This document shows positions 1-9,598 of a stretch of 64,000 bases of DNA, piece by piece. Origin of the DNA: Xanthomonas indica (GTDB lineage: Bacteria; Pseudomonadota; Gammaproteobacteria; Xanthomonadales; Xanthomonadaceae). How positions within the stretch are numbered: the first letter of the stretch is position 1; every line of letters starts with the position of its first letter. The stretch lies in contig NZ_CP131914.1 in the NCBI RefSeq assembly GCF_040529045.1, positions 2,154,501 to 2,218,500 on the forward strand. Reading direction: 5' to 3'. Made by a program: the position numbers and the translations under genes. The notes below the pieces were generated by a model, which searched no databases, was not told the DNA's origin, and saw only the letters and a program-made list of their open reading frames with translations.

Positions 1-775
1 GCCGGCCCATCCAGTTGTCCTCGCCCTGCACCTCGAACGGGTAGGCCAGGTCGCGATGGCAGAAGATGTGCACGAACAGCCGCCCACCCGGCACCAGCCA
101 ATGGCTGACCCGCTTGAGCAGTTCGCGGTAGTTGCGCATGTGCTCGAACATCTCGATCGAGACCACGCGGTCGTAGCTCTCGGTCGGCAGGGTCAGGGTG
201 TTGGCGTCGTGAGTGATCACCTTGACGTTGCTGAGCCCGCGCGCGCGGCACTGCGCTTCGATGTGCTCGCGCTGCGGCCGCGAGTTGGACACCGCGGTGA
301 TGCGCGCGCCGGGGAACTGCTCGGCCATCCACAAGGTCAGCGAACCCCAGCCGCAGCCCAGCTCGAGGATGCGCTGGCCATCGCGCAACTGCGCGCGTTC
401 GCCGTACAGCTGCAGCATGCGTTCTTCGGCCGCGTTCAGGTCGGGCGTGCTCGCGTCCCAGTAGCAGCTGCTGTACTTCAGGCGCTTGCCCAGGCACAGC
501 TCGAAGAACCGCGGCGGCACTTCGTAGTGCTGGCGATTGGCCGCGTCGGTCTCGATGGCGATGGCGCTCTCGCGCAGCGATTCGATCAGCAGGCGCTGGC
601 GTTCCCAGGCCGCGTCGGCGCCGCCGGCGCGCTCGTCGCGCAGGCGCTGCGCGCACAACCGGCGCATCGCCGCGCGCAGCATGGCGTCGGGCAGCAGGCC
701 GGACTCGGCCAGGCGCGTGGCCAGAGGCTCGGCCGGCGCGGCGGGCGGGGAAGAGGTGGCGAAGGTGCTGGACAT
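1..775 (-). CDS. CFA-synthase-like SAM-dependent methyltransferase (3' part cut by window edge)
   Basis: A class I SAM methyltransferase of the cyclopropane-fatty-acyl-phospholipid synthase superfamily, expected to methylate unsaturated acyl chains of membrane phospholipids. From ATG 773-775, 258 residues are visible; I estimate roughly 90 C-terminal residues lie outside. HYEVPPRFFE (83-92) matches the family's substrate-domain signature, LELGCGWGS (137-145) is SAM motif I, and VSIEMFEHM (205-213) is the region holding a conserved Glu. It is the last visible gene of the lipid operon, 21 bases after the DUF1295 gene, and is a second, shorter paralogue of the methyltransferase at 2118-3431. Two methyltransferases in one operon suggest two successive methylations or two substrates (inference). 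Family certain, substrate not. Confidence 0.88.
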   Translation of the reverse strand, partial: MSSTFATSSPPAAPAEPLATRLAESGLLPDAMLRAAMRRLCAQRLRDERAGGADAAWERQRLLIESLRESAIAIETDAANRQHYEVPPRFFELCLGKRLKYSSCYWDASTPDLNAAEERMLQLYGERAQLRDGQRILELGCGWGSLTLWMAEQFPGARITAVSNSRPQREHIEAQCRARGLSNVKVITHDANTLTLPTESYDRVVSIEMFEHMRNYRELLKRVSHWLVPGGRLFVHIFCHRDLAYPFEVQGEDNWMGR

Positions 776-796
776 CGGCGGATCTCCTGGCGCGGC

Positions 797-1579
797 TCAG
801 TGCCGCGGCGGCATGGGGAAGAAGGCGCTGGTGCTGCGCTGGTAGTCGGCGTAGTCGCGGCCACGCGAGCGCAGGGCCTGCTGTTCGGTGTAGGGAATGC
901 CGGTGACGCGGTACAGGAAGGCGAACATCAGCAGCGGTCCCAGCGCGGCCACGCCGACCCACAGCGCGCCGCTGCCCGCCGCCAGGAACACGTAGGCGAA
1001 CCAGTGCACGAATTCGAAGAAGTAGTTCGGGTGCCGCGAATAGCGCCACAGGCCGCGGCGGCAGGTGGTGCCCTTGTTCGCCGGGTCGGCGCGGAACGCG
1101 GCCAGTTGCCGGTCGGCCAGGCTTTCCCCGCCGACCGCGATCAGCCAGGTCGCCACCGCCAGCGTGGTCCACACGCTCCATTGCGGCTGCGGATTGTGCG
1201 CGGCCACCGACAGCGGCACCGCGAACGCCAGCACCACCAGCGCCTGGCCGAGGAAGAACGCCAGGAACTTGCGCTGGTCGCCGTGCCAGTGCTCGCGCAG
1301 GGCGCGATAGCGGCCGTCCTCGTGCGCATCGCCGAACACGCGCACGCCCAGGTGCCAGGCCAGGCGTGCGCCCCACAGCCCGCCCAGCACGGCGGTCAGC
1401 ACGCGCGGCAGCAACGCGCCGTCGGCGCGCCAGGCGCAGTACACCGCGGTCAGCGCCATGCACGCCGACCACAACACGTCGACCACGCCGGCGTTGCGGG
1501 TGTGTCGCTGCCAGGCCCAGCCGGCGAGCATGACCAGCACGGTGAATACGCCGACATGCAGCAGCGGCCAGGTGTTCAT
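797..1579 (-). CDS. DUF1295 domain membrane protein (steroid 5-alpha-reductase-like)
   Basis: Integral membrane protein of 260 residues with about six hydrophobic segments. The C-terminal part contains LWRYSRHPNYFFEF, the RHPNY-type signature shared by DUF1295 proteins, steroid 5-alpha reductases and isoprenylcysteine methyltransferases. Family members are annotated as NAD(P)H-dependent reductases, but the bacterial ones in lipid operons lack an assigned reaction. The start ATG 1577-1579 overlaps the stop of the DUF2878 gene by ATGA, implying translational coupling. Placement between the two methyltransferase genes suggests a redox or double-bond step on modified acyl chains, an inference from context only. 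Confidence 0.85.
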   Translation of the reverse strand: MNTWPLLHVGVFTVLVMLAGWAWQRHTRNAGVVDVLWSACMALTAVYCAWRADGALLPRVLTAVLGGLWGARLAWHLGVRVFGDAHEDGRYRALREHWHGDQRKFLAFFLGQALVVLAFAVPLSVAAHNPQPQWSVWTTLAVATWLIAVGGESLADRQLAAFRADPANKGTTCRRGLWRYSRHPNYFFEFVHWFAYVFLAAGSGALWVGVAALGPLLMFAFLYRVTGIPYTEQQALRSRGRDYADYQRSTSAFFPMPPRH

Positions 1580-2121
1580 CGCATCGCTCCGGTTGCCGGC
1601 ATCGCTGGCGTTGGGGACATCAGGCGGCGCATCGCCAGGCTCAGCGGGGTCAGTGCCGCGGCCCAGCCCAGCGCCAGCGCCAGCAGCGCCTGCGGCAATG
1701 GCTCGGTCAGCGTCACCGCCTGCCAGCCGCGCGCGGCCAGCACATAGCCCAGCGGACCGGCGGTGGCGCCGAACAGCGCCGCGCGCCAGGGATGGCGCAT
1801 CACCCACGCCAGCGAATGCTGGAAGGTCAGCGCGAAGCCGGCCCACAGCGCCAGGATCCACAGCGGCGGCCACGGCGCCGGCGGCGCGGCGGCGTAGCGC
1901 ACCCAGTCGCCGGCGCGCATGGCGGCATCCACACCGGCGCCCAGGGGCAACGCCAGGGCGATCAGCGTGGCGTCGCCGCGGGCGCGACGGCGCGGCTGCA
2001 ACTGGTACAGCGCGAACAGCGCCAGCGCCGCCGGGCCGGCCCAGGCCAGCCCGTGCGCGGCGCCGACGACCGCGGCCAGCCACAGCCCCTGCAGGGCCAG
2101 GTAGTTGATCAGGTTGCTCAT
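1576..2121 (-). CDS. DUF2878 family membrane protein
   Basis: A 181-residue, very hydrophobic protein with about five predicted membrane helices and no catalytic motif I can point to. It matches the small DUF2878 family, which to my knowledge occurs beside CFA-synthase, DUF1365 and FAD-oxidoreductase genes. Both ends are coupled: its ATG (2119-2121) overlaps the methyltransferase stop, and its stop overlaps the DUF1295 start, each through ATGA. This fixes the start and argues for tight co-translation. The function is unknown; a membrane partner or scaffold for the lipid-modifying enzymes is a guess. Confidence 0.78.
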   Translation of the reverse strand: MSNLINYLALQGLWLAAVVGAAHGLAWAGPAALALFALYQLQPRRRARGDATLIALALPLGAGVDAAMRAGDWVRYAAAPPAPWPPLWILALWAGFALTFQHSLAWVMRHPWRAALFGATAGPLGYVLAARGWQAVTLTEPLPQALLALALGWAAALTPLSLAMRRLMSPTPAMPATGAMR

Positions 2122-3431
2122 GCGTCGCCCGCCAGCGCGGGAGCGAACTGCGCCGGCCGCGCGCGCGGCTTGCTCAGCCACAGGTGCACGTCGCCGATCG
2201 AGCGCTCCAGGAAGCCGCCCTCGCAGTAGGCCAGATAGAACTCCCACATGCGGATGAAGCGTTCGTCGTAGCCGAGCGCGCGCACCTGCGGCAGTTTGGC
2301 CATGAAGCGCTCGCGCCAGGCGCGCAGGGTCAGCGCGTAGCTGGGGCCGATGTCTTCCAGGTTGAACAGGCGCAGGTCGCTGGCGCGGCCGATCGCGCCG
2401 GTCATCGCCGCTACCGAGGGAATGAAGCTGCCCGGGAAGATGTGGCGCTTGATGAAGTCCACCGACTTGAGCGCCTGCGCGTAGCGGTGATCCTCGATGG
2501 TGATGGCCTGGATCAGCGCCTGGCCGTCGTCCTTGAGCAGGCTGCCGACCTTGCCGAAGTAGGTGTCCAGGTACTGATGGCCGATCGCCTCGATCATCTC
2601 GATCGAGACCAGGCGATCGTAGCGACCATCGAGATCGCGGTAATCGCGCAGCAGCACTTCGACCCGGTCCGACAGCCCCGCGGCGGCGATGCGCTGCCGC
2701 GCCAGTTCGTACTGCTCGCGCGAGATGGTGGTGGTGGTGACGCGGCAGCCGTGGTGCTTGGCCGCATGCAGCGCGAAACCGCCCCAGCCGGTGCCGATCT
2801 CGACCAGATGGTGCTGCGGCTGCAGATCGAGCTTGGCGCAGATGCGCTGCAGCTTGCGCTCGGCCGCGCGCTCCAGCGCCGCCTCGCCCAAGGCGGCGTC
2901 GGCATCGCGGAAGATCGCCGAGGAGTACATCAGGTTGCGGTCCAGGAACAGCTCGAACAGTTGGTTGCCCAGGTCGTAGTGCGCGGCGATGTTGCGGCGG
3001 CTGCCGGCGCGGGTGTTGCGGGCGAACGCGTGCAGGCCGCGCATCGCCAGGCCGCCGAGCCGGGCCAGGCCGGTCTCCATCGCGTCCAGGCGGTCGCGGT
3101 TGCGCACCAGCAGGCGCACCAGCGCGACCAGGTCGTCGCAGTCCCACAGCCCGTCCATGTACGCCTCGCCGACGCCGACGCTGCCGTTGAGCGCGGCCTG
3201 CCGGTAGAAACGCGGGTCGTGGATGCGCAGGTGCGCCTGCAACGCGTCGGCGCCGGCGCTGGCATCGCCCAGCGTGGTCAGCGTGCCGGCCTCCTCGATC
3301 CGCAGCTGACCATCGTGCAGGCCATCGAGCGTGGCGAGCAGGCGCTGCCGCAGCAGGCGATCGAGACCGCGCACCGGCGGTGCGGCCGGGGTCAGCGCGG
3401 CGTCGGAAGAGGGCGCGTGCGGAGCGTTCAT
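2118..3431 (-). CDS. Cyclopropane-fatty-acyl-phospholipid synthase-family methyltransferase
   Basis: A 437-residue methyltransferase that should transfer a methyl group from SAM to the double bond of phospholipid acyl chains at the inner membrane. Visible are the N-terminal GEAYMDGLWD (88-97), HYDLGN (151-156) before the catalytic domain, SAM-binding EIGTGWGG (211-218) and an IEMIEAIGHQY segment with the conserved Glu, all typical of Cfa. It is longer than E. coli Cfa (about 382 residues). ATG 3429-3431 overlaps the DUF1365 stop. Depending on chemistry it could form cyclopropane rings or a methylated unsaturated chain, as UfaM does in furan fatty-acid synthesis; the sequence alone does not decide. 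Confidence 0.93.
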   Translation of the reverse strand: MNAPHAPSSDAALTPAAPPVRGLDRLLRQRLLATLDGLHDGQLRIEEAGTLTTLGDASAGADALQAHLRIHDPRFYRQAALNGSVGVGEAYMDGLWDCDDLVALVRLLVRNRDRLDAMETGLARLGGLAMRGLHAFARNTRAGSRRNIAAHYDLGNQLFELFLDRNLMYSSAIFRDADAALGEAALERAAERKLQRICAKLDLQPQHHLVEIGTGWGGFALHAAKHHGCRVTTTTISREQYELARQRIAAAGLSDRVEVLLRDYRDLDGRYDRLVSIEMIEAIGHQYLDTYFGKVGSLLKDDGQALIQAITIEDHRYAQALKSVDFIKRHIFPGSFIPSVAAMTGAIGRASDLRLFNLEDIGPSYALTLRAWRERFMAKLPQVRALGYDERFIRMWEFYLAYCEGGFLERSIGDVHLWLSKPRARPAQFAPALAGDA

Positions 3432-4297
3432 CGGCGTTCTCGCGGAAGGGAATGGTCGGGGTGGTCGTGCACCGGGTTGCCGCGCAGCCACAGCCGCAGC
3501 GCCTGCCAGTGGATCTTGGCCATGACCTGCAGGGTCATCGCCGGATAGCGCAGCAGCGCCTGCGCCAGGCTGGCGCCGCCGAGGGCGCGGCGCTGCAGCA
3601 CCAAGGTGGCGTCGAAGCGCCGCCGCGTCGTCGCCGGCGCGGGATCGAGCACGTCCATGTGCACGCGCAGTTGCGCGCCGGGTTCGCTGAAGCGCCAAGC
3701 GTAGGTGTGCGCCATGGCCATGAACGGCGAGACATGGAAGCGCTTGGCGAAGCGCCAGGCATGCGTGGCGCCATGACTGCGCGCCTCGGCCATCGGCAGC
3801 ACGTAGGCGTGGCGCTGCCGCCATGGCGTGTTGGTGATCTCGGCGACGATGCTGTGCAGGCGTTGCTGCGCATCGTGGCAGTAGTAGAACGTGACCGGAT
3901 TGAAGCAGTGGCCGAAGTAGCGCAGGTGGGTGAGCATGCGCACTGGCCCCAGCGGGCGCTCGCCGGTGTGCTGCTGCACGCGGTCGCGTACCGCTTCGTC
4001 CAGTGGCTGTGCAGGGTCGCCGAGGTAATCGCTGCGGCGGAACTCGGCCAGGTTGCGCCGGTTCACCGACCACAGCCAGCGCCGCGCGAACACCTGCTCC
4101 AGTTCGTCCAGGTCCAGGTACAGCAGGAACAGCGGATAGCGGAACGCCAGCGCTTTCGGCGCATAGCGGCGATGCCGCACCCAGCCGGTGTACACCGCGC
4201 TGTGCAGGCCGTGCAAGGTCGTGCCCGCCGCCGCCGACGTTGTCGAGACGGCGCCAGCCGGCGGGGCGGACACGGCAGCACGGCGCATCAGGGTCAT
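3428..4297 (-). CDS. DUF1365 domain-containing protein
   Basis: A 289-residue protein of the DUF1365 family, recognisable from an N-terminal block (LHSAVYTGWVRHRR), the central RYFGHCFNPVTFYYC and the following EITNTPW segment. DUF1365 proteins are almost always encoded next to CFA-synthase and FAD oxidoreductase genes and are implicated in making modified (cyclopropane or furan) fatty acids, but the reaction is not settled. The start chosen is ATG 4295-4297, which overlaps the oxidoreductase stop; a second in-frame ATG nine bases on (4286-4288) is a possible alternative. No signal peptide is visible. Confidence 0.9.
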   Translation of the reverse strand: MTLMRRAAVSAPPAGAVSTTSAAAGTTLHGLHSAVYTGWVRHRRYAPKALAFRYPLFLLYLDLDELEQVFARRWLWSVNRRNLAEFRRSDYLGDPAQPLDEAVRDRVQQHTGERPLGPVRMLTHLRYFGHCFNPVTFYYCHDAQQRLHSIVAEITNTPWRQRHAYVLPMAEARSHGATHAWRFAKRFHVSPFMAMAHTYAWRFSEPGAQLRVHMDVLDPAPATTRRRFDATLVLQRRALGGASLAQALLRYPAMTLQVMAKIHWQALRLWLRGNPVHDHPDHSLPRERR

Positions 4298-5547
4298 GAC
4301 CAGGGTACCCCCAGCGCGGCGGCCACGTCGACCGCGCTGCGCAGGCCGTCCTCGTGGAAGCCGAAGCCCCAGCCGGCGCCGGCGAACCAGGTGTTGCGCT
4401 GGCCCTGGATCTCGCCCTTGCGCGCCTGCGCCGCCACCGATGCCTGGGTCTGCAGCGGATGCCGGTAGCGCATGCGTCGCAGCACCTTGGCCGGATCGAT
4501 CGCATCTGTGCGGTTGAGGCTGACGATGAACGGCTGCGGCGCCTGCAGCGACTGCAGCGCGTTCATCCAGTAGCTCACCGTGCACGGCGCGTCCGGATCG
4601 GCCGGCACGTGCGCATTCCAGGCGGCCCAGGCGCGGCGGTCGCGCGGCAGCACGCGCGCATCGGTGTGCAGCACGGTCTCGTTGTCCTGGTAGCCGATCG
4701 CGCCGAGGATCGCGGTTTCGGCTTCGCTGGGATCGGTGAGCAGGCGCAGCGCATCGTCGGCGTGGCAGGCCAGTACCGCGTGGTCGTATTGCTGGGTGTC
4801 GGCGTCGCAGGCGATGGCGACGCTGCCGTGCGCGGTCCGCTGGATCGCGCGCACCGGCGTGCCCAGCCGCTCGCGCACGCGCCAGCGGCTGCGCAACGCG
4901 CGCACGTAGCTGTTGGAGCCGCCGCGCACTACCCGCCACTGCGGGCGGCCGCTGACCTGCAGCATGTGGTGGTTGGCCATGAAGCCGATCAACTGGCGCA
5001 TCGGGAAGTCGAGGATCTGCCGCGAGGGCGAGGACCACAGCGCCGAGGCCATCGGCACCAGGTGCGCGTCGCGGAACACCTCGGAGTAGCCGTGGCGCTG
5101 CAGGAATTCGCCCAGCGTCAGCTGCGCCAGGGTGGCGTCGTGCAGCACCTGCGGCGCCTCGCGGTAGAACCGCTGCAGGTCGCGCAGCATCCGCCAGAAG
5201 CGCGGCGACAGCAGATTGCGGCGCTGGCAGAACAGGCCGCCGAGGGTGCCGGCGTTGTATTCCAGCCCGGTGCGCTGCTCGTGCACCGAGAAACTCATCG
5301 TGGTCGGCTGCGACTCCACCCCGAGCCGCGCGAACAGCGCGCTCAGCAGCGGGTAGTGCTGCGGATTGAACACGATGAAGCCGCTGTCCACCGCGTACTC
5401 CACGCCGTCCAGTTCGATCGCATGGGTGTGGGTGTGGCCGCCGAGATAATCGGCCGCCTCGTACAGCGTCACCTCGTGGCGCTGCGACAGCAACCATGCC
5501 GCGCCGAGGCCGGCGATCCCCGAGCCCACCACCGCGATCCGGCTCAT
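4294..5547 (-). CDS. NAD(P)/FAD-dependent oxidoreductase (amine-oxidase fold)
   Basis: A 417-residue flavoprotein. It opens with a dinucleotide-binding Rossmann motif GSGIAG (8-13) followed by an acidic strand end (TLYEA), and closes with WFAGAGWGFGFHEDGL, the C-terminal FAD contact seen in amine oxidase and phytoene-desaturase-like enzymes. The partner set (DUF1365, CFA-like methyltransferase) is the usual one for this subfamily. A flavin-dependent desaturation or oxidation of methylated acyl chains would fit, but that is inference. ATG 5545-5547 overlaps the desaturase stop, so it is the second gene of the operon. Confidence 0.9.
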   Translation of the reverse strand: MSRIAVVGSGIAGLGAAWLLSQRHEVTLYEAADYLGGHTHTHAIELDGVEYAVDSGFIVFNPQHYPLLSALFARLGVESQPTTMSFSVHEQRTGLEYNAGTLGGLFCQRRNLLSPRFWRMLRDLQRFYREAPQVLHDATLAQLTLGEFLQRHGYSEVFRDAHLVPMASALWSSPSRQILDFPMRQLIGFMANHHMLQVSGRPQWRVVRGGSNSYVRALRSRWRVRERLGTPVRAIQRTAHGSVAIACDADTQQYDHAVLACHADDALRLLTDPSEAETAILGAIGYQDNETVLHTDARVLPRDRRAWAAWNAHVPADPDAPCTVSYWMNALQSLQAPQPFIVSLNRTDAIDPAKVLRRMRYRHPLQTQASVAAQARKGEIQGQRNTWFAGAGWGFGFHEDGLRSAVDVAAALGVPWS

Positions 5548-6521
5548 CGGGCACGCGCCTGTGCGCGCAGCAGTCCGGCCGGCACCGGTTTGAGCTCGCG
5601 GATCACGCGGGTCCACGACAGCGCCTTCAGTCCGTACCAGGTCAGGTCCAGCTCCCACCAGCGGAATCCCTGGCGCGCGGCGCCGGGGAAGAAATGGTGG
5701 TTGTTGTGCCAGCCTTCGCCGAAGGTCAGCAGCGCCAGCCACAGGTTGTTGCGGCTGTCGTCGCGGGTGTCGAAGCGACGGCTGCCGAAGCGGTGCGCCA
5801 GCGAGTTGATGGTGAAGGTGGCATGGAACAGCGCCACGGTGGAGACGAAGAAGCCCCAGACCAGCAACTGCGGGCCATCGGTGCCGAGCTGCGGCACGTG
5901 CTGCTGCAGCCACTCGCCGAGCAGGAACAGTGCCAGCGCCAGCAGCACCGGCAGCAGCAGGTCGAAGCGATCGAGGAAGCGCAGTTCGGGGAAGCGACGC
6001 AGGTCCGGGATCGCGTCCCAATCGGTGCGGAAGCCGCGCGGGGTCAGGAACCAGCCGCTATGGCTCCACCAGAAGCCGTGCTGGCGTGGCGAATGCGGAT
6101 CGGCCGGGGTGTCGGTGTGGCGATGGTGGTTGCGGTGGTGCGCGGCCCACCACAGCGGCCCGCGCTGCACGCAGGTGGCGCCGATCGCGGCGAACAGGAA
6201 CTGCACCGGGCGCGAGGTCTTGAACGCGCGGTGGGCGAAATAGCGGTGGTAGAAGCCGGTGAGCGCGAACATGCGCACCGCGTACATCGCCACCGCCATG
6301 CCCACGGCGAACCACGACACGCCGACCCAGAACACGCCCAGGCAGGCCAGGTGCAGGCCGATGTAGGGCGCGGCGCGCAGCCAGTCGATGCGGTCGGCAC
6401 GCGCCGGGTCCAGTTCGATCTCGGCGCTGGTGTCGAACCAGCGGCGCAAGGTGCGCAGGATGCGGCCACGCGGCGCAGGCGGCGTTGTCGAATGCGGGCG
6501 TTCCGGAACGGGACTCGGCAC
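5544..6521 (-). CDS. Membrane fatty acid desaturase (di-iron, acyl-CoA/acyl-lipid type)
   Basis: First gene of the lipid operon. The 325-residue protein carries all three histidine boxes of membrane di-iron desaturases: HRYFAH (92-97), HHRNHH (128-133) and HNNHH (272-276), separated by paired membrane helices. It should introduce a cis double bond, most likely delta-9, into saturated acyl chains using O2, supplying the unsaturated substrate for the methyltransferases that follow. The start is GTG 6519-6521: no in-frame ATG occurs before residue 74, and a stop lies four codons upstream. The reaction is solid at family level; substrate form and position are inferred. Confidence 0.92.
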   Translation of the reverse strand: MPSPVPERPHSTTPPAPRGRILRTLRRWFDTSAEIELDPARADRIDWLRAAPYIGLHLACLGVFWVGVSWFAVGMAVAMYAVRMFALTGFYHRYFAHRAFKTSRPVQFLFAAIGATCVQRGPLWWAAHHRNHHRHTDTPADPHSPRQHGFWWSHSGWFLTPRGFRTDWDAIPDLRRFPELRFLDRFDLLLPVLLALALFLLGEWLQQHVPQLGTDGPQLLVWGFFVSTVALFHATFTINSLAHRFGSRRFDTRDDSRNNLWLALLTFGEGWHNNHHFFPGAARQGFRWWELDLTWYGLKALSWTRVIRELKPVPAGLLRAQARAR

Positions 6522-6857
6522 AAGCGCGTCTCATTGGGGGACTTGGGGAGCGATACGGGCGAAACCGGAAGACGGATGCACCCGCGTCGCGCGCCGTCCC
6601 CTGCGCGTGGTGCATGCCCCTCGCGCGTGGCGCACGTGTTCCCCGCCTGCGCATCGCAGCGCCGAGGGGGACGATCGTGTCGCGACACAGGACGGAACCG
6701 CGCATGCATGACAGCGCGCGTATCCTGCCCAGGCTGCGGTAGCGGTTAAGTGAATACGCGCCGCCGACGCCGTGGCGGCGGCGGTCGGCGACCACCGCGA
6801 CGCGCGCCAAGAGGCCGCGCGCGGGCGATGCGGCGGCGCAGGGCCGCCGCAATTTGT
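6522..6857. other. Intergenic region between lipid operon and anti-sigma gene
   Basis: This 336-base gap is the presumed promoter region of the seven-gene lipid operon and also the 3' flank of the anti-sigma gene. I found no coding sequence and no convincing -35/-10 pair. It contains a perfect 12-base palindrome (6677-6688, listed separately). I could not identify an ECF-type promoter with confidence. Confidence 0.5.
6677..6688. promoter_or_regulatory. Perfect 12-bp palindrome, candidate operator
   Basis: GTGTCGCGACAC reads identically on both strands and lies about 156 bases upstream of the desaturase start, between the anti-sigma gene and the lipid operon. Position and symmetry suit a dimeric repressor or activator site. 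No cognate regulator can be named, and chance occurrence in GC-rich DNA is possible. Confidence 0.3.
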
Positions 6858-7646
6858 CTACGGCGCCAGCTGCAACGTACTGATGCCGCCCTTGGCCACG
6901 ACCGGGCCGGTGGCCACGCCGCCGGGCGCGCCGCCGGGCGGTTCCATGGTCACCGCCAGCACCGCGCCGTCGCTGAGCAAGGGCATCAGCGCATCGGGGA
7001 TGCGCGCCACGCGCGCCTTGGCTTCGTCGAACACGCCCATCGAGCGCGCCTTGCCGTCGGCCGGGATCAGCCACAGTTCGGGCACGCGGGCGCTGTCGCG
7101 GGTGCCGCCGAGCGGGGTGAGGGTGATGCTGCGCTTGTCGGCGTCCATCAGCGCCACGTAGCCGGGCTTGCCGTCGTCCTGCATCAGCGTGGAGGTCATC
7201 GCGATGCCGCTGGGCTTGGGCGTGGTGGTGGCGACCGGCGGCGGCTGCGCGGCCGGCGGTGGCACCGGCGCGCGCGCCAGCAGCAGCGCCAGCAGGCAGG
7301 CGGTGGCGGTGGCGAAGCCGCCGGCGCTGAGCCAGCGCCAGGTCCGCACGCTGTCCCAGAACCCGGGCGCGGCCGGACGCGCGCGTGGCGCCGGCGCATC
7401 CAGGCCCAGCGAGGCGCGGATGCGCACCCACACGCGTTCGGGCACCGCCACCGGCGCGATCTCGTCGGCCAGCGGCATCAGGTGCTGTTGCCACTGCAGC
7501 ACCGCCGCGGCGAATGCATGGTCGCTGTCGATGCGCGCCTCGGCAGCACGCCGCTCCTGCGCGTCGAGCACGCCGAGCACGTATTCGCCGGCCAGCACGT
7601 CGCGCGGCGGCGGGGTTTCCTGCGGATCGGGCACGGAGGCGTTCAT
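6858..7646 (-). CDS. RskA-like anti-sigma factor
   Basis: A 262-residue, single-pass inner-membrane protein. The N-terminal cytoplasmic part (LAGEYVLGVLDAQERR, 18-33) matches the helical start of the anti-sigma-K family; a membrane helix spans about 106-124, followed by a Pro/Ala linker and a periplasmic RskA domain. It should bind and silence the ECF sigma factor encoded just upstream. The zinc-binding HxxxCxxC motif of ChrR/RsrA-type anti-sigmas is absent, so it is unlikely to sense singlet oxygen through zinc like ChrR. ATG 7644-7646 overlaps the sigma stop (ATGA); a GTG twelve bases upstream is less likely. Confidence 0.88.
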   Translation of the reverse strand: MNASVPDPQETPPPRDVLAGEYVLGVLDAQERRAAEARIDSDHAFAAAVLQWQQHLMPLADEIAPVAVPERVWVRIRASLGLDAPAPRARPAAPGFWDSVRTWRWLSAGGFATATACLLALLLARAPVPPPAAQPPPVATTTPKPSGIAMTSTLMQDDGKPGYVALMDADKRSITLTPLGGTRDSARVPELWLIPADGKARSMGVFDEAKARVARIPDALMPLLSDGAVLAVTMEPPGGAPGGVATGPVVAKGGISTLQLAP

Positions 7647-8200
7647 CGTTCCAGGCACGCTTTCAGTTTGGCCAGGCCGCGGCGGATCCAGCTCTTGACC
7701 GTGCCCAGCGGCGTGCCGCTGCGATGGGCCAGTTCTTCATAGGTGATGCCTTCGAAGAACGCGGTACGGATCAGCTCGCCGCGCGGCGGCTCCAGTTCGC
7801 CCATGCACACGTCCAGGCGCCGGCCGGCCACCCGCCACTCGGTGTCGGCGAGCGGATCGCGGCCTTCGTCCTGCAGCTCGCCGGCGTCGTCCAGCGCCAC
7901 CGATTGCCGCGCCGGCGCACGTGCGCGCAGATGGTCGATGGCCTTGTTGCGCGCGATCATGGTCAGCCAGGTCAGGCCGCGCGCGCGCTGCGGGTCGAAT
8001 TGCGCGGCCTTGCGCCAGACCGAGGAGAACACTTCCTGCAGCACGTCCTCGGCCTCGCCGCGCTGCGGCACGATGCGCAGGCACACGCCGAACAGGCGCG
8101 ACGAGGTGCTGCGGTACAGGCGCTCGAAGGCGGCGCTGTCGCCGTTGGCGGTGGCGACCAGCAATTGTCCTGCTTCGTCGTGATCGGGCGTCTCGGTCAT
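7643..8200 (-). CDS. ECF-family RNA polymerase sigma factor
   Basis: A 185-residue sigma-70 family factor containing only regions 2 and 4. Region 2 includes the DVLQEVFSSVW segment and TWLTMIARNKAIDHLR (recognition of the -10 element); region 4 is the helix-turn-helix around YEELAHRSGTPLGTVKSWIRRGL, near the C-terminus. It is co-transcribed with its anti-sigma through an ATGA overlap, the classical ECF arrangement. Its regulon probably includes itself and possibly the downstream lipid operon, on the same strand about 1.1 kb away; that link is inferred from position only. Start ATG 8198-8200. Confidence 0.93.
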   Translation of the reverse strand: MTETPDHDEAGQLLVATANGDSAAFERLYRSTSSRLFGVCLRIVPQRGEAEDVLQEVFSSVWRKAAQFDPQRARGLTWLTMIARNKAIDHLRARAPARQSVALDDAGELQDEGRDPLADTEWRVAGRRLDVCMGELEPPRGELIRTAFFEGITYEELAHRSGTPLGTVKSWIRRGLAKLKACLER

Positions 8201-8258
8201 GCCGGGATACGGTGGCGAAGGTCGGCGCGATGCTACAGGCTTTCGCCGCGTCCGTCGC

Positions 8259-8630
8259 TCAGGCGCGCTGGCGCCGCCACAGCACGAGTGCGGCGAGCAG
8301 CAGGACGATCTCGAACACGGCCAGGCCGGTCGTGGTCGGGCCCACCGGCCACAACCGCAGCAGGCTGGCGCTGCGGTAGAGCACGATGGGCACGTAGAAC
8401 GCCAGCGCCAGGAGCAGGCCGGTGCGCAGCTGCCCGGTGCGGGCGAAGTAGCCGAACAGGAAGGCCATGCCCAACTGCAGGCCGCCGTAGATGACCAGGT
8501 ATTCGGACTGGCCGGACCGGTCCAGGCCGACATAGCCCACCGCCGCGGCGGTCTGCGCCGGCAGCAGCGTGCACCAGACGGCGAGCAGCGCGTACAGCGC
8601 GGCGTTGAACCACAGATAGGCCTTGGCCAT
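8259..8630 (-). CDS. Small four-helix membrane protein, unknown function
   Basis: A 123-residue protein with four evenly spaced hydrophobic segments and a short basic tail (WRRQRA). The centre, EYLVIYGGLQLGMAFLFGYFAR, is reminiscent of DUF4345-type small membrane proteins, but I do not recognise it securely. ATG 8628-8630 follows no overlapping gene. It is encoded 58 bases upstream of the sigma factor on the same strand, so it may share its transcript. No function assigned. Confidence 0.7.
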   Translation of the reverse strand: MAKAYLWFNAALYALLAVWCTLLPAQTAAAVGYVGLDRSGQSEYLVIYGGLQLGMAFLFGYFARTGQLRTGLLLALAFYVPIVLYRSASLLRLWPVGPTTTGLAVFEIVLLLAALVLWRRQRA

Positions 8631-8718
8631 GGGGTGTCCTCGTCGATGCGCGGGCGATGCGCAGGCATGGTTGTAGCGGGTGCGGCGCGGGCCGGCGTGA
8701 ACGCGCTGGCGGCGCGGC

Positions 8719-9507
8719 TCAGCGCGCGCTGCATTGCGCGACCAACGGTTGCTGCAGCGCCTGCTCCCAGGCGCCGGCATCGGCCTGGCCGCGCAGGCGT
8801 TCGGGGAATTCGATGCGCACGGTCGGGTAGCGGCCGCGCGCGTCGCGGATGTTGCCGACGCCGCGGAACTCGAGCAGACGCCGGTCCTGGCGCGCGTAGG
8901 CGACGCTGAGGTCGGGCAGCAGCGTGCCGTACCAGGCGGCCAGGCTCAGGGTGTAGCGCTGCACCTCGGCATCGGCCGGGCCGGGCGTGATGCGGAAGTC
9001 GAGCGTGCGCAGTTCGCTGGGCAGCACGAAGGCGATACGCTGCGGCGCGCCGCTGCCCAGGCTGTCCCAGCGCTGGCGCAGGTAGGCGTCGAAGCCGGCG
9101 TCGATCACCTGCGCCTGGTCGCTCTTCGGCAACGGTGCGCGGCGCTCGGCCTGGCCTTTGGCCTGGCTGAACATCTCGCGCCCGCCGCCGCTGCGGCGCA
9201 CGCCCTCGCGGTAGCCGCTGCGCGCATCGACCAGCTCGAAGTCCGGCGCGGCGCTGCCGTCGTCCACGCGCTTGCGCGCGAATGCGGCGCCATCGGCGCA
9301 CTGGTACAGCACCAGGCGCGCACCATCCTCGCGCACCCAGTGGCTTTCGCGATACAGCACCTGCTTGCCGTCGGCGGCATAGGCGACGCCCTCGTAGTGC
9401 AGCATGGCCCTGGCCGGCGCCGCAGCGATCAGGGCGGCGATGCCGAGGGCCAGGGCCAGCGGCAGGTGCGGTCGGGAGAGTGGGAAGGCAGCGGTCGACG
9501 TCGGCAT
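8719..9507 (-). CDS. Exported protein of unknown function
   Basis: About 262 residues beginning with a clear signal peptide (basic start, hydrophobic LALALGIAALIAAA, then an Ala-x-Ala-like cleavage site before MLHYEG). The mature part has no motif I recognise; it contains ESHWVREDGARLVLYQC and a long polar C-terminal half with two cysteines (YQC and the final QCSAR) that could form a disulfide. ATG 9505-9507 places the signal peptide correctly; an upstream in-frame ATG at 9538-9540 would add eleven residues without improving it. Likely periplasmic. Confidence 0.72.
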   Translation of the reverse strand: MPTSTAAFPLSRPHLPLALALGIAALIAAAPARAMLHYEGVAYAADGKQVLYRESHWVREDGARLVLYQCADGAAFARKRVDDGSAAPDFELVDARSGYREGVRRSGGGREMFSQAKGQAERRAPLPKSDQAQVIDAGFDAYLRQRWDSLGSGAPQRIAFVLPSELRTLDFRITPGPADAEVQRYTLSLAAWYGTLLPDLSVAYARQDRRLLEFRGVGNIRDARGRYPTVRIEFPERLRGQADAGAWEQALQQPLVAQCSAR

Positions 9508-9598
9508 GCACGGCGCTCCGGTGGGATGACACCAGGACATACGCGGCCGGCGCCGATCCGGATGCGCCCGCCGTGGCGGCCGCGTTGCGGTGGCCGTC

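Follow-up and report, generated by a model that had tools for sequence, protein, structure and literature searches.

What kind of lipid is made by a seven-gene operon of Xanthomonas indica, and does the regulatory pair that stands beside it control it? The operon lies in a 64,000-base stretch of DNA (hereafter the window), bases 2154501-2218500 of a single-contig genome of 4,807,150 bases (NZ_CP131914.1), next to genes for an extracytoplasmic function (ECF) sigma factor and an RskA-type anti-sigma factor. Furan fatty acids act as scavengers, and have been proposed as messengers, of oxidative damage to membranes, and the bacterial pathway to them has been worked out so far in two alphaproteobacteria. 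As judged from sequence, the operon very probably specifies the whole route to membrane furan fatty acids, in its dimethyl form, under control of the ECF/RskA pair. This reading is carried by tree placement, gene order, conservation, and the co-occurrence of a rare motif with the regulator.

The seven genes run on the minus strand from position 6521 to beyond base 1 of the window, with junctions from the desaturase gene onward of -4, -4, -4, -4, -4, and +21 (five 4-base overlaps and one 21-base gap). The ECF and RskA genes lie upstream on the same strand and share a 4-base overlap, and 336 bases separate the RskA gene from the desaturase gene. The eight genes measured have a GC fraction of 0.87-0.93 at third codon positions (the ninth gene, which spans the window edge, was left out). 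The preliminary description had reported these linked genes beside the pair, and the coordinates, the junctions, and the conservation given below bear it out. Its gene families stand in that every protein of the locus scores above its own Pfam cut-off; the second of its two "CFA-like" methyltransferases, however, is closest to coclaurine and pavine N-methyltransferases.

The published pathway has a flavin oxidoreductase as UfaD and a DUF1365 protein as UfaO (Lemke and colleagues, PMC7380195), and ufaD, ufaO, and ufaM of Rhodopseudomonas palustris are RPA2571, RPA2570, and RPA2569 (PMC7380195). The same order, a flavin adenine dinucleotide (FAD) oxidoreductase gene followed by DUF1365 and the first methyltransferase gene (CFA1), is found here; the FAD and DUF1365 genes thus adjoin a UfaM-type gene, the arrangement that marks the Ufa/Fuf pathway. 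The cluster is also present in R. palustris XCP, R. palustris 2.1.18, R. pseudopalustris DSM 123, and Bradyrhizobium BTAi1, with identities to the window of 44-45% (FAD enzyme), 32-35% (DUF1365), and 40-42% (CFA). A search of Protein Data Bank (PDB) sequences with the DUF1365 protein gave one chance-level match and no relative. Among solved structures, the FAD enzyme comes closest to the amine oxidase LkcE (170 bits), which may serve as a template for its chemistry. The di-iron desaturase, of the stearoyl-CoA (SCD) type with three histidine boxes, was considered as UfaD and ruled out, since the published UfaD is a flavin oxidoreductase (PMC7380195). It is an extra gene relative to the published set and probably supplies monounsaturated substrate; two further desaturases in the genome score above the Pfam cut-off.

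Conservation was examined in 25 loci (the window, four, and 20 others), all chosen for carrying the coclaurine N-methyltransferase-like (CNMT-like) gene, and all seven genes occur in order in 20 of them. Identities fall to 30-56% in the most distant of these (L256), and the remaining five loci have no detected DUF2878 (L040), DUF1295 (L245, L253, L255), or desaturase and FAD genes (L252). A scan of a genome collection for the CNMT gene found 458 relatives, of which 80 named loci were kept. Among 80 related genomes searched for both genes (CNMT E-values up to 1e-60, DUF1365 up to 1e-10), both genes are found in 53, CNMT alone in one (G545), DUF1365 alone in one (G558), and neither in 25. In 51 of these pairs the two genes are on one strand and no more than 6 kb apart, with DUF1365 first in 48, and the other two pairs are split between contigs. 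In a 299-genome sample of the phylum, DUF1365 is present in 18/20 genomes with CNMT versus 73/279 without it (p 1.5e-8, uncorrected for kinship); the latter fraction agrees with monomethyl furan acids being more widespread than dimethyl acids. In the 18 CNMT loci fetched, FAD and DUF1365 genes accompany the CNMT gene in 10, six of which come from outside the order, and DUF1295 does so in 13. The two CNMT genomes of the sample that lack a DUF1365 match (G035 and G217) count against the furan reading. Both are large genomes of one genus, the CNMT match of G217 is partial, and their CNMT-like gene may act on another substrate.

The second methyltransferase would be the enzyme that makes the product a dimethyl furan. 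Among solved structures it lies closest to coclaurine and pavine N-methyltransferases (257.9 bits for 6gkv, compared with 91.1 bits for the Cfa structure 6bqc), and in a 58-row methyltransferase tree it falls in a 26-row clade with the Rhodopseudomonas FufM-type gene (support 100/100), to which it is 48-51% identical. A CNMT-type gene is present in 16/16 genomes of a genus taken as Rhodopseudomonas (that of G400). In R. palustris, RPA3082 is 38% identical to UfaM of Rhodobacter sphaeroides and its deletion had no effect, while RPA0924 (FufM) is 26% identical (PMC7380195). Three CMAS genes score above 130 bits in three of the four named genomes, namely a DUF1365-adjacent one, a Cfa-like one, and a CNMT-like one. 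Identity to Rhodopseudomonas/Bradyrhizobium UfaM is 29-33% (374-410 residues) for the Cfa-like gene and 27-32% (223-231 residues) for the CNMT-like gene. Identity rank to UfaM and elimination among the CMAS genes point to the CNMT-like gene as the probable FufM. Two points count against this step: it proceeds by rank and elimination rather than by comparison with RPA0924 itself, and R. pseudopalustris, with only the DUF1365-adjacent and CNMT-like genes above 130 bits, has no RPA3082-type gene.

The kinship with plant N-methyltransferases also suggests a different role, in which the second enzyme would methylate nitrogen, for example that of an aminolipid head group, leaving the operon to make monomethyl furan acids only. 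This is unlikely given the grouping with the Rhodopseudomonas FufM-type gene and the close co-occurrence of CNMT and DUF1365. The Arabidopsis gene AT4G33110, which we take to be coclaurine-N-methyltransferase-like, argues in the same direction. It is given as the Arabidopsis homologue of FufM (37.9%) in the accessible part of one report (PMC10940516), which lists FufM under UniProt Q6NBA4 and R. sphaeroides UfaM under Q3J4I7.

CFA1 is a UfaM-type enzyme by tree placement and by active site. The preliminary description had put forward a methyltransferase phylogeny as a check, and the 58-row tree, which does not include R. sphaeroides UfaM or RPA0924, places CFA1 in an 18-row clade with Rhodopseudomonas/Bradyrhizobium UfaM (support 100/99), outside which lie E. 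coli Cfa and the other R. palustris Cfa-like gene. Cys139, His240, and His266 are kept in 10/10 Cfa-like rows and 3/3 RPA3082-type rows, as in E. coli Cfa, while 4/4 UfaM rows have Ser, Ala, and Gln at these positions. All 14 CFA1 rows have the Ala and Gln, with Ser at position 139 in 13 and Ala in one. The bicarbonate site of bacterial Cfa is described, in the portions of the two reports at hand, as Cys139, Glu239, His266, Ile268, and Tyr317 (PMC3132707, PMC11387697). CFA1 has Ser, Glu, Gln, Ile, and Tyr there and departs from the bacterial Cfa set, and the residue pattern separates UfaM from bacterial Cfa. A Halomonas study, as far as its accessible part goes, describes contiguous ufaM, ufaD, and ufaO and a UfaM that yields 11-methyloctadec-12-enoate in E. 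coli (PMC12089945).

A plain cyclopropane or simple methyl-branched operon would have CFA1 closing rings on desaturase-made monoenes while the redox proteins have other lipids as substrates. This is quite improbable, because CFA1 stands apart from E. coli Cfa, three of its Cfa-site residues are altered as in UfaM, and DUF1365 and the FAD enzyme are kept beside it across the order. It draws support from CFA1 being, besides the CNMT-like gene, the sole strong Cfa-like candidate in the genome. A C17 cyclopropane acid reported in related genera also weighs on its side and against furan synthesis. So do the cotton cyclopropane synthases (GhCPS1-3), which in the part of the source consulted share two of the three active-site changes of CFA1, with His266 lost in 3/3 and Ser139 present in 2/3 (PMC3132707), and so does the proposal of membrane lipid modification by cyclopropane synthases made for a similar Stenotrophomonas cluster in the accessible text of that report (PMC11832516). 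Because plant cyclopropane synthases carry UfaM-type changes, the residue pattern is best taken as a mark of lineage rather than of product. The reading of both methyltransferases as plain Cfa enzymes is ruled out by tree and active site, with the cotton synthases as a caveat.

For the furan pathway, the chemical steps are predicted from the homologous enzymes of the route established in R. sphaeroides and R. palustris. The operon desaturase would top up cis-monounsaturated acyl chains, and CFA1 (UfaM) would methylate a phospholipid acyl chain at its double bond to give a methyl-branched trans-olefin. The FAD enzyme (UfaD) would convert this to a conjugated methyl-diene, and the DUF1365 protein (UfaO) would insert an oxygen atom from O2 and close the methylfuran, to which the coclaurine-type methyltransferase (FufM) would add the second methyl. 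Should 16:1(9) be the main substrate, the expected products are counterparts of 9M5 and 9D5 with a C16 backbone. The furan direction named in the preliminary description, dimethyl form included, has the backing of the family assignments, of gene order and co-occurrence, and of the methyltransferase tree. Its statement that sequence does not decide the chain type holds for the product itself, but sequence narrows the choice more than it had allowed.

The case for regulation centers on a motif newly described in this analysis, GCATCS-N15-CCGTAT, a putative promoter shared by the regions upstream of the operon and of the ECF gene. These are its only two matches in the 4.8 Mb genome, and the reversed pattern gives none. 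The variant GCATCC-N15-YCGTA has two genome matches (the desaturase and one elsewhere), with one match for its control. With one mismatch allowed, the window holds a third copy, before an exported-protein gene (0.54 expected; at least three copies in 2/100 shuffles). Among 24 loci scanned, which exclude L252 for want of a detected desaturase and count L242 with the pair though its stretch holds only RskA, GCATC-N15/16-YCGTA lies no more than 180 bases from the desaturase match in 13/13 loci with ECF/RskA versus 0/11 without. The 13 comprise eight loci of the genus of the window (the window included), four of its family, and one of another family. Counted over all loci, with these matches included, the pattern occurs at a rate of 0.005 per 180 bases. 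The looser motif also precedes the exported-protein gene in nine of the 10 RskA loci that hold that gene, the window included (L039 is without it). The gene itself is conserved together with the regulon.

Several features of the motif evidence weigh against this control. The motif was first seen by eye in two upstream regions and then loosened and tightened on relatives, which makes the 13/13 versus 0/11 contrast partly post hoc, and a laxer pattern within 400 bases also matches upstream in four loci without ECF/RskA (L037, L038, L248, L249). The full pattern before the ECF gene is exact only in the window (1/12 loci), with the left half visibly kept in seven others, and for this reason autoregulation of the ECF gene is less sure. 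That the pair is a mere neighbor without control of the operon, as the 336-base gap and the 11/24 scanned loci with the operon but without ECF/RskA might suggest, is nonetheless improbable in view of a rare motif that is common to both units and tracks the presence of ECF/RskA. The ECF factor, kept in check by RskA, would respond to oxidative or envelope stress by activating the operon, and probably its own gene as well, at promoters resembling GCATCS-N15-CCGTAT.

Cys40, Cys132, and Cys182 are present in 12/12 RskA-partnered ECF factors, and 4/4 ChrR-partnered ones have cysteine at none of these columns. The window ECF factor scores 138.5 bits against the NCBIfam SigK subfamily, below the cut-off of 226. 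A ChrR-type cupin protein (PF12973) follows the neighboring ECF gene at L038, L040, L045, and L052, and ChrR control was ruled out for the window genome, where the ECF partner is RskA (PF10099). A TGATCC-type promoter was not found before the desaturase, with the pattern used, in eight loci without ECF/RskA. Because the window ECF factor pairs with RskA and those of the four loci with ChrR-type proteins, the same pathway appears to be wired to two unrelated anti-sigma types, and a SigK/RskA-type switch apparently stands where other loci have ChrR.

The two remaining families of the operon, DUF1295 and DUF2878, are membrane proteins. DUF1295 adjoins the CNMT gene in 63 of the 80 named loci (four of these only in part; some contigs are short), and a DUF1295 gene precedes the FufM-type gene in the named Rhodopseudomonas loci. 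A PDB sequence search with DUF1295 gave one chance-level match and no relative. A tentative proposal, possible but doubtful, is that the stress switch was exchanged, with a SigK/RskA-type pair and promoters to match in place of ChrR, and that DUF1295, the usual fufM neighbor, is a membrane reductase of sterol-reductase fold acting on the methylated or furan chain, for example by saturating a double bond. The accessible text of two reports has parts of the cluster from Vibrio (VC1123, DUF2878; PMC12971978) and from Aeromonas (PMC10012899).

If the furan reading is right, the operon is a compact gene set for dimethyl-furan acids, many non-photosynthetic bacteria of this order have every step to dimethyl acids encoded in a single operon, and the superoxide-tolerance cluster of Stenotrophomonas is to be re-read as furan synthesis. 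DUF1295 and DUF2878, two conserved orphan membrane proteins, would be placed in a defined pathway. A search for furan fatty acids, confined to one literature collection, found no paper with Stenotrophomonas and two apparently incidental ones with Xanthomonas.

Features of the locus, with positions in window coordinates
Feature	Position	Strand	Remarks
Promoter-like copy 3, one mismatch to GCATCS-N15-CCGTAT	9539..9565	-	Before exported/periplasmic-protein gene
Predicted exported protein	8719..9540	-	Without Pfam family; counterpart at head of L038 cluster (40%); by position smlt2375, as described in the accessible part of PMC11832516
DUF4345-like gene	8259-8780		Between exported-protein gene and ECF gene
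Promoter-like GCATCG-N15-CCGTAT	8207..8233	-	Before ECF gene; one of two exact genome matches
ECF sigma factor, SigK-like	7643..8200	-	Cys40/132/182
RskA-type anti-sigma factor	6858..7646	-	PF10099, 71.8 bits vs cut-off 29.4
Promoter-like GCATCC-N15-CCGTAT	6553..6579	-	Before operon; one of two exact genome matches
Membrane di-iron fatty acid desaturase	5544..6521	-	GTG start; PF00487, SCD-type, histidine boxes
FAD oxidoreductase, UfaD-type	4294..5547	-	Pfam; identity to alphaproteobacterial counterparts (44-45%)
DUF1365 protein, UfaO-type	3428..4297	-	PF07103, 287.7 bits; identity to alphaproteobacterial counterparts (32-35%)
CFA1, UfaM-type methyltransferase	2118..3431	-	Pfam, gene order, tree, active site
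DUF2878 protein	1576..2121	-	PF11086, 140.8 bits
DUF1295 membrane protein, predicted sterol-reductase/ICMT fold	797..1579	-	PF06966; model and fold comparison
Second methyltransferase, CNMT-like, FufM-type	1..775, on to window coordinate -301	-	L006:8199-9275, 358 aa

An Rfam scan of the window gave no match at gathering score, and neither a sigma-70 promoter nor a terminator was found at the 3′ end of the operon (L006 7900-8300). Short GAATGGGGAA-type repeats lie between the operon end and a convergent RidA-like gene (L006, window about -300 to -530).

The closest published counterpart is the furan pathway of R. palustris (RPA2571-2569 and RPA0924; PMC7380195), in which the ufaD-ufaO-ufaM families and their order are the same as in the window. 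In Rhodopseudomonas, fufM lies apart from the ufa genes, whereas the window holds both methylases, the desaturase, DUF2878, and DUF1295 in one operon. By the published description, R. sphaeroides RSP1091-1087 and ufaM (RSP2144) belong to the sigmaE-ChrR (ECF11) regulon and resemble the window in adjacent UfaD and UfaO genes under ECF control, but ufaM lies elsewhere, fufM is not named, and the anti-sigma factor is ChrR rather than RskA. Furan fatty acids are assigned to the sigmaE-ChrR core regulon in the accessible part of one study (PMC6852236).

The accessible text on Stenotrophomonas maltophilia (PMC11832516) describes a nine-gene cluster, smlt2375-smlt2367, whose annotated order is as in the window: exported protein, desaturase, FAD enzyme, hypothetical protein, CFA, two membrane hypotheticals, CFA, and lipocalin. 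There, this cluster is the most induced in a chrR mutant, and its expression drops again in the chrR/rpoE double mutant. It also plays a part in superoxide tolerance and in susceptibility to beta-lactams; the text at hand contains no lipid analysis. The cluster stands under a divergent rpoEc-chrR-chrA, whereas ECF/RskA is the predicted control of the window operon. L038 shows the S. maltophilia arrangement, together with divergent ECF, ChrR, and NAD(P)-binding protein genes. By eye, a lipocalin-like gene follows CNMT in L037 (11469-12098, reverse-complemented), as in the published Stenotrophomonas cluster, and none was seen directly after the window operon.

Two cysteines, 133 and 183, are conserved in SigK/RskA systems, according to the part of the report at hand (PMC7509140). 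The SigK-RskA pair of Mycobacterium tuberculosis (ECF18/19) resembles the window pair in its RskA partner and in a SigK-like ECF factor. By residue number, Cys132 and Cys182 of the window factor fall near SigK 133 and 183. The M. tuberculosis pair differs in that the window ECF factor scores below the SigK cut-off and has a lipid operon as its predicted target.

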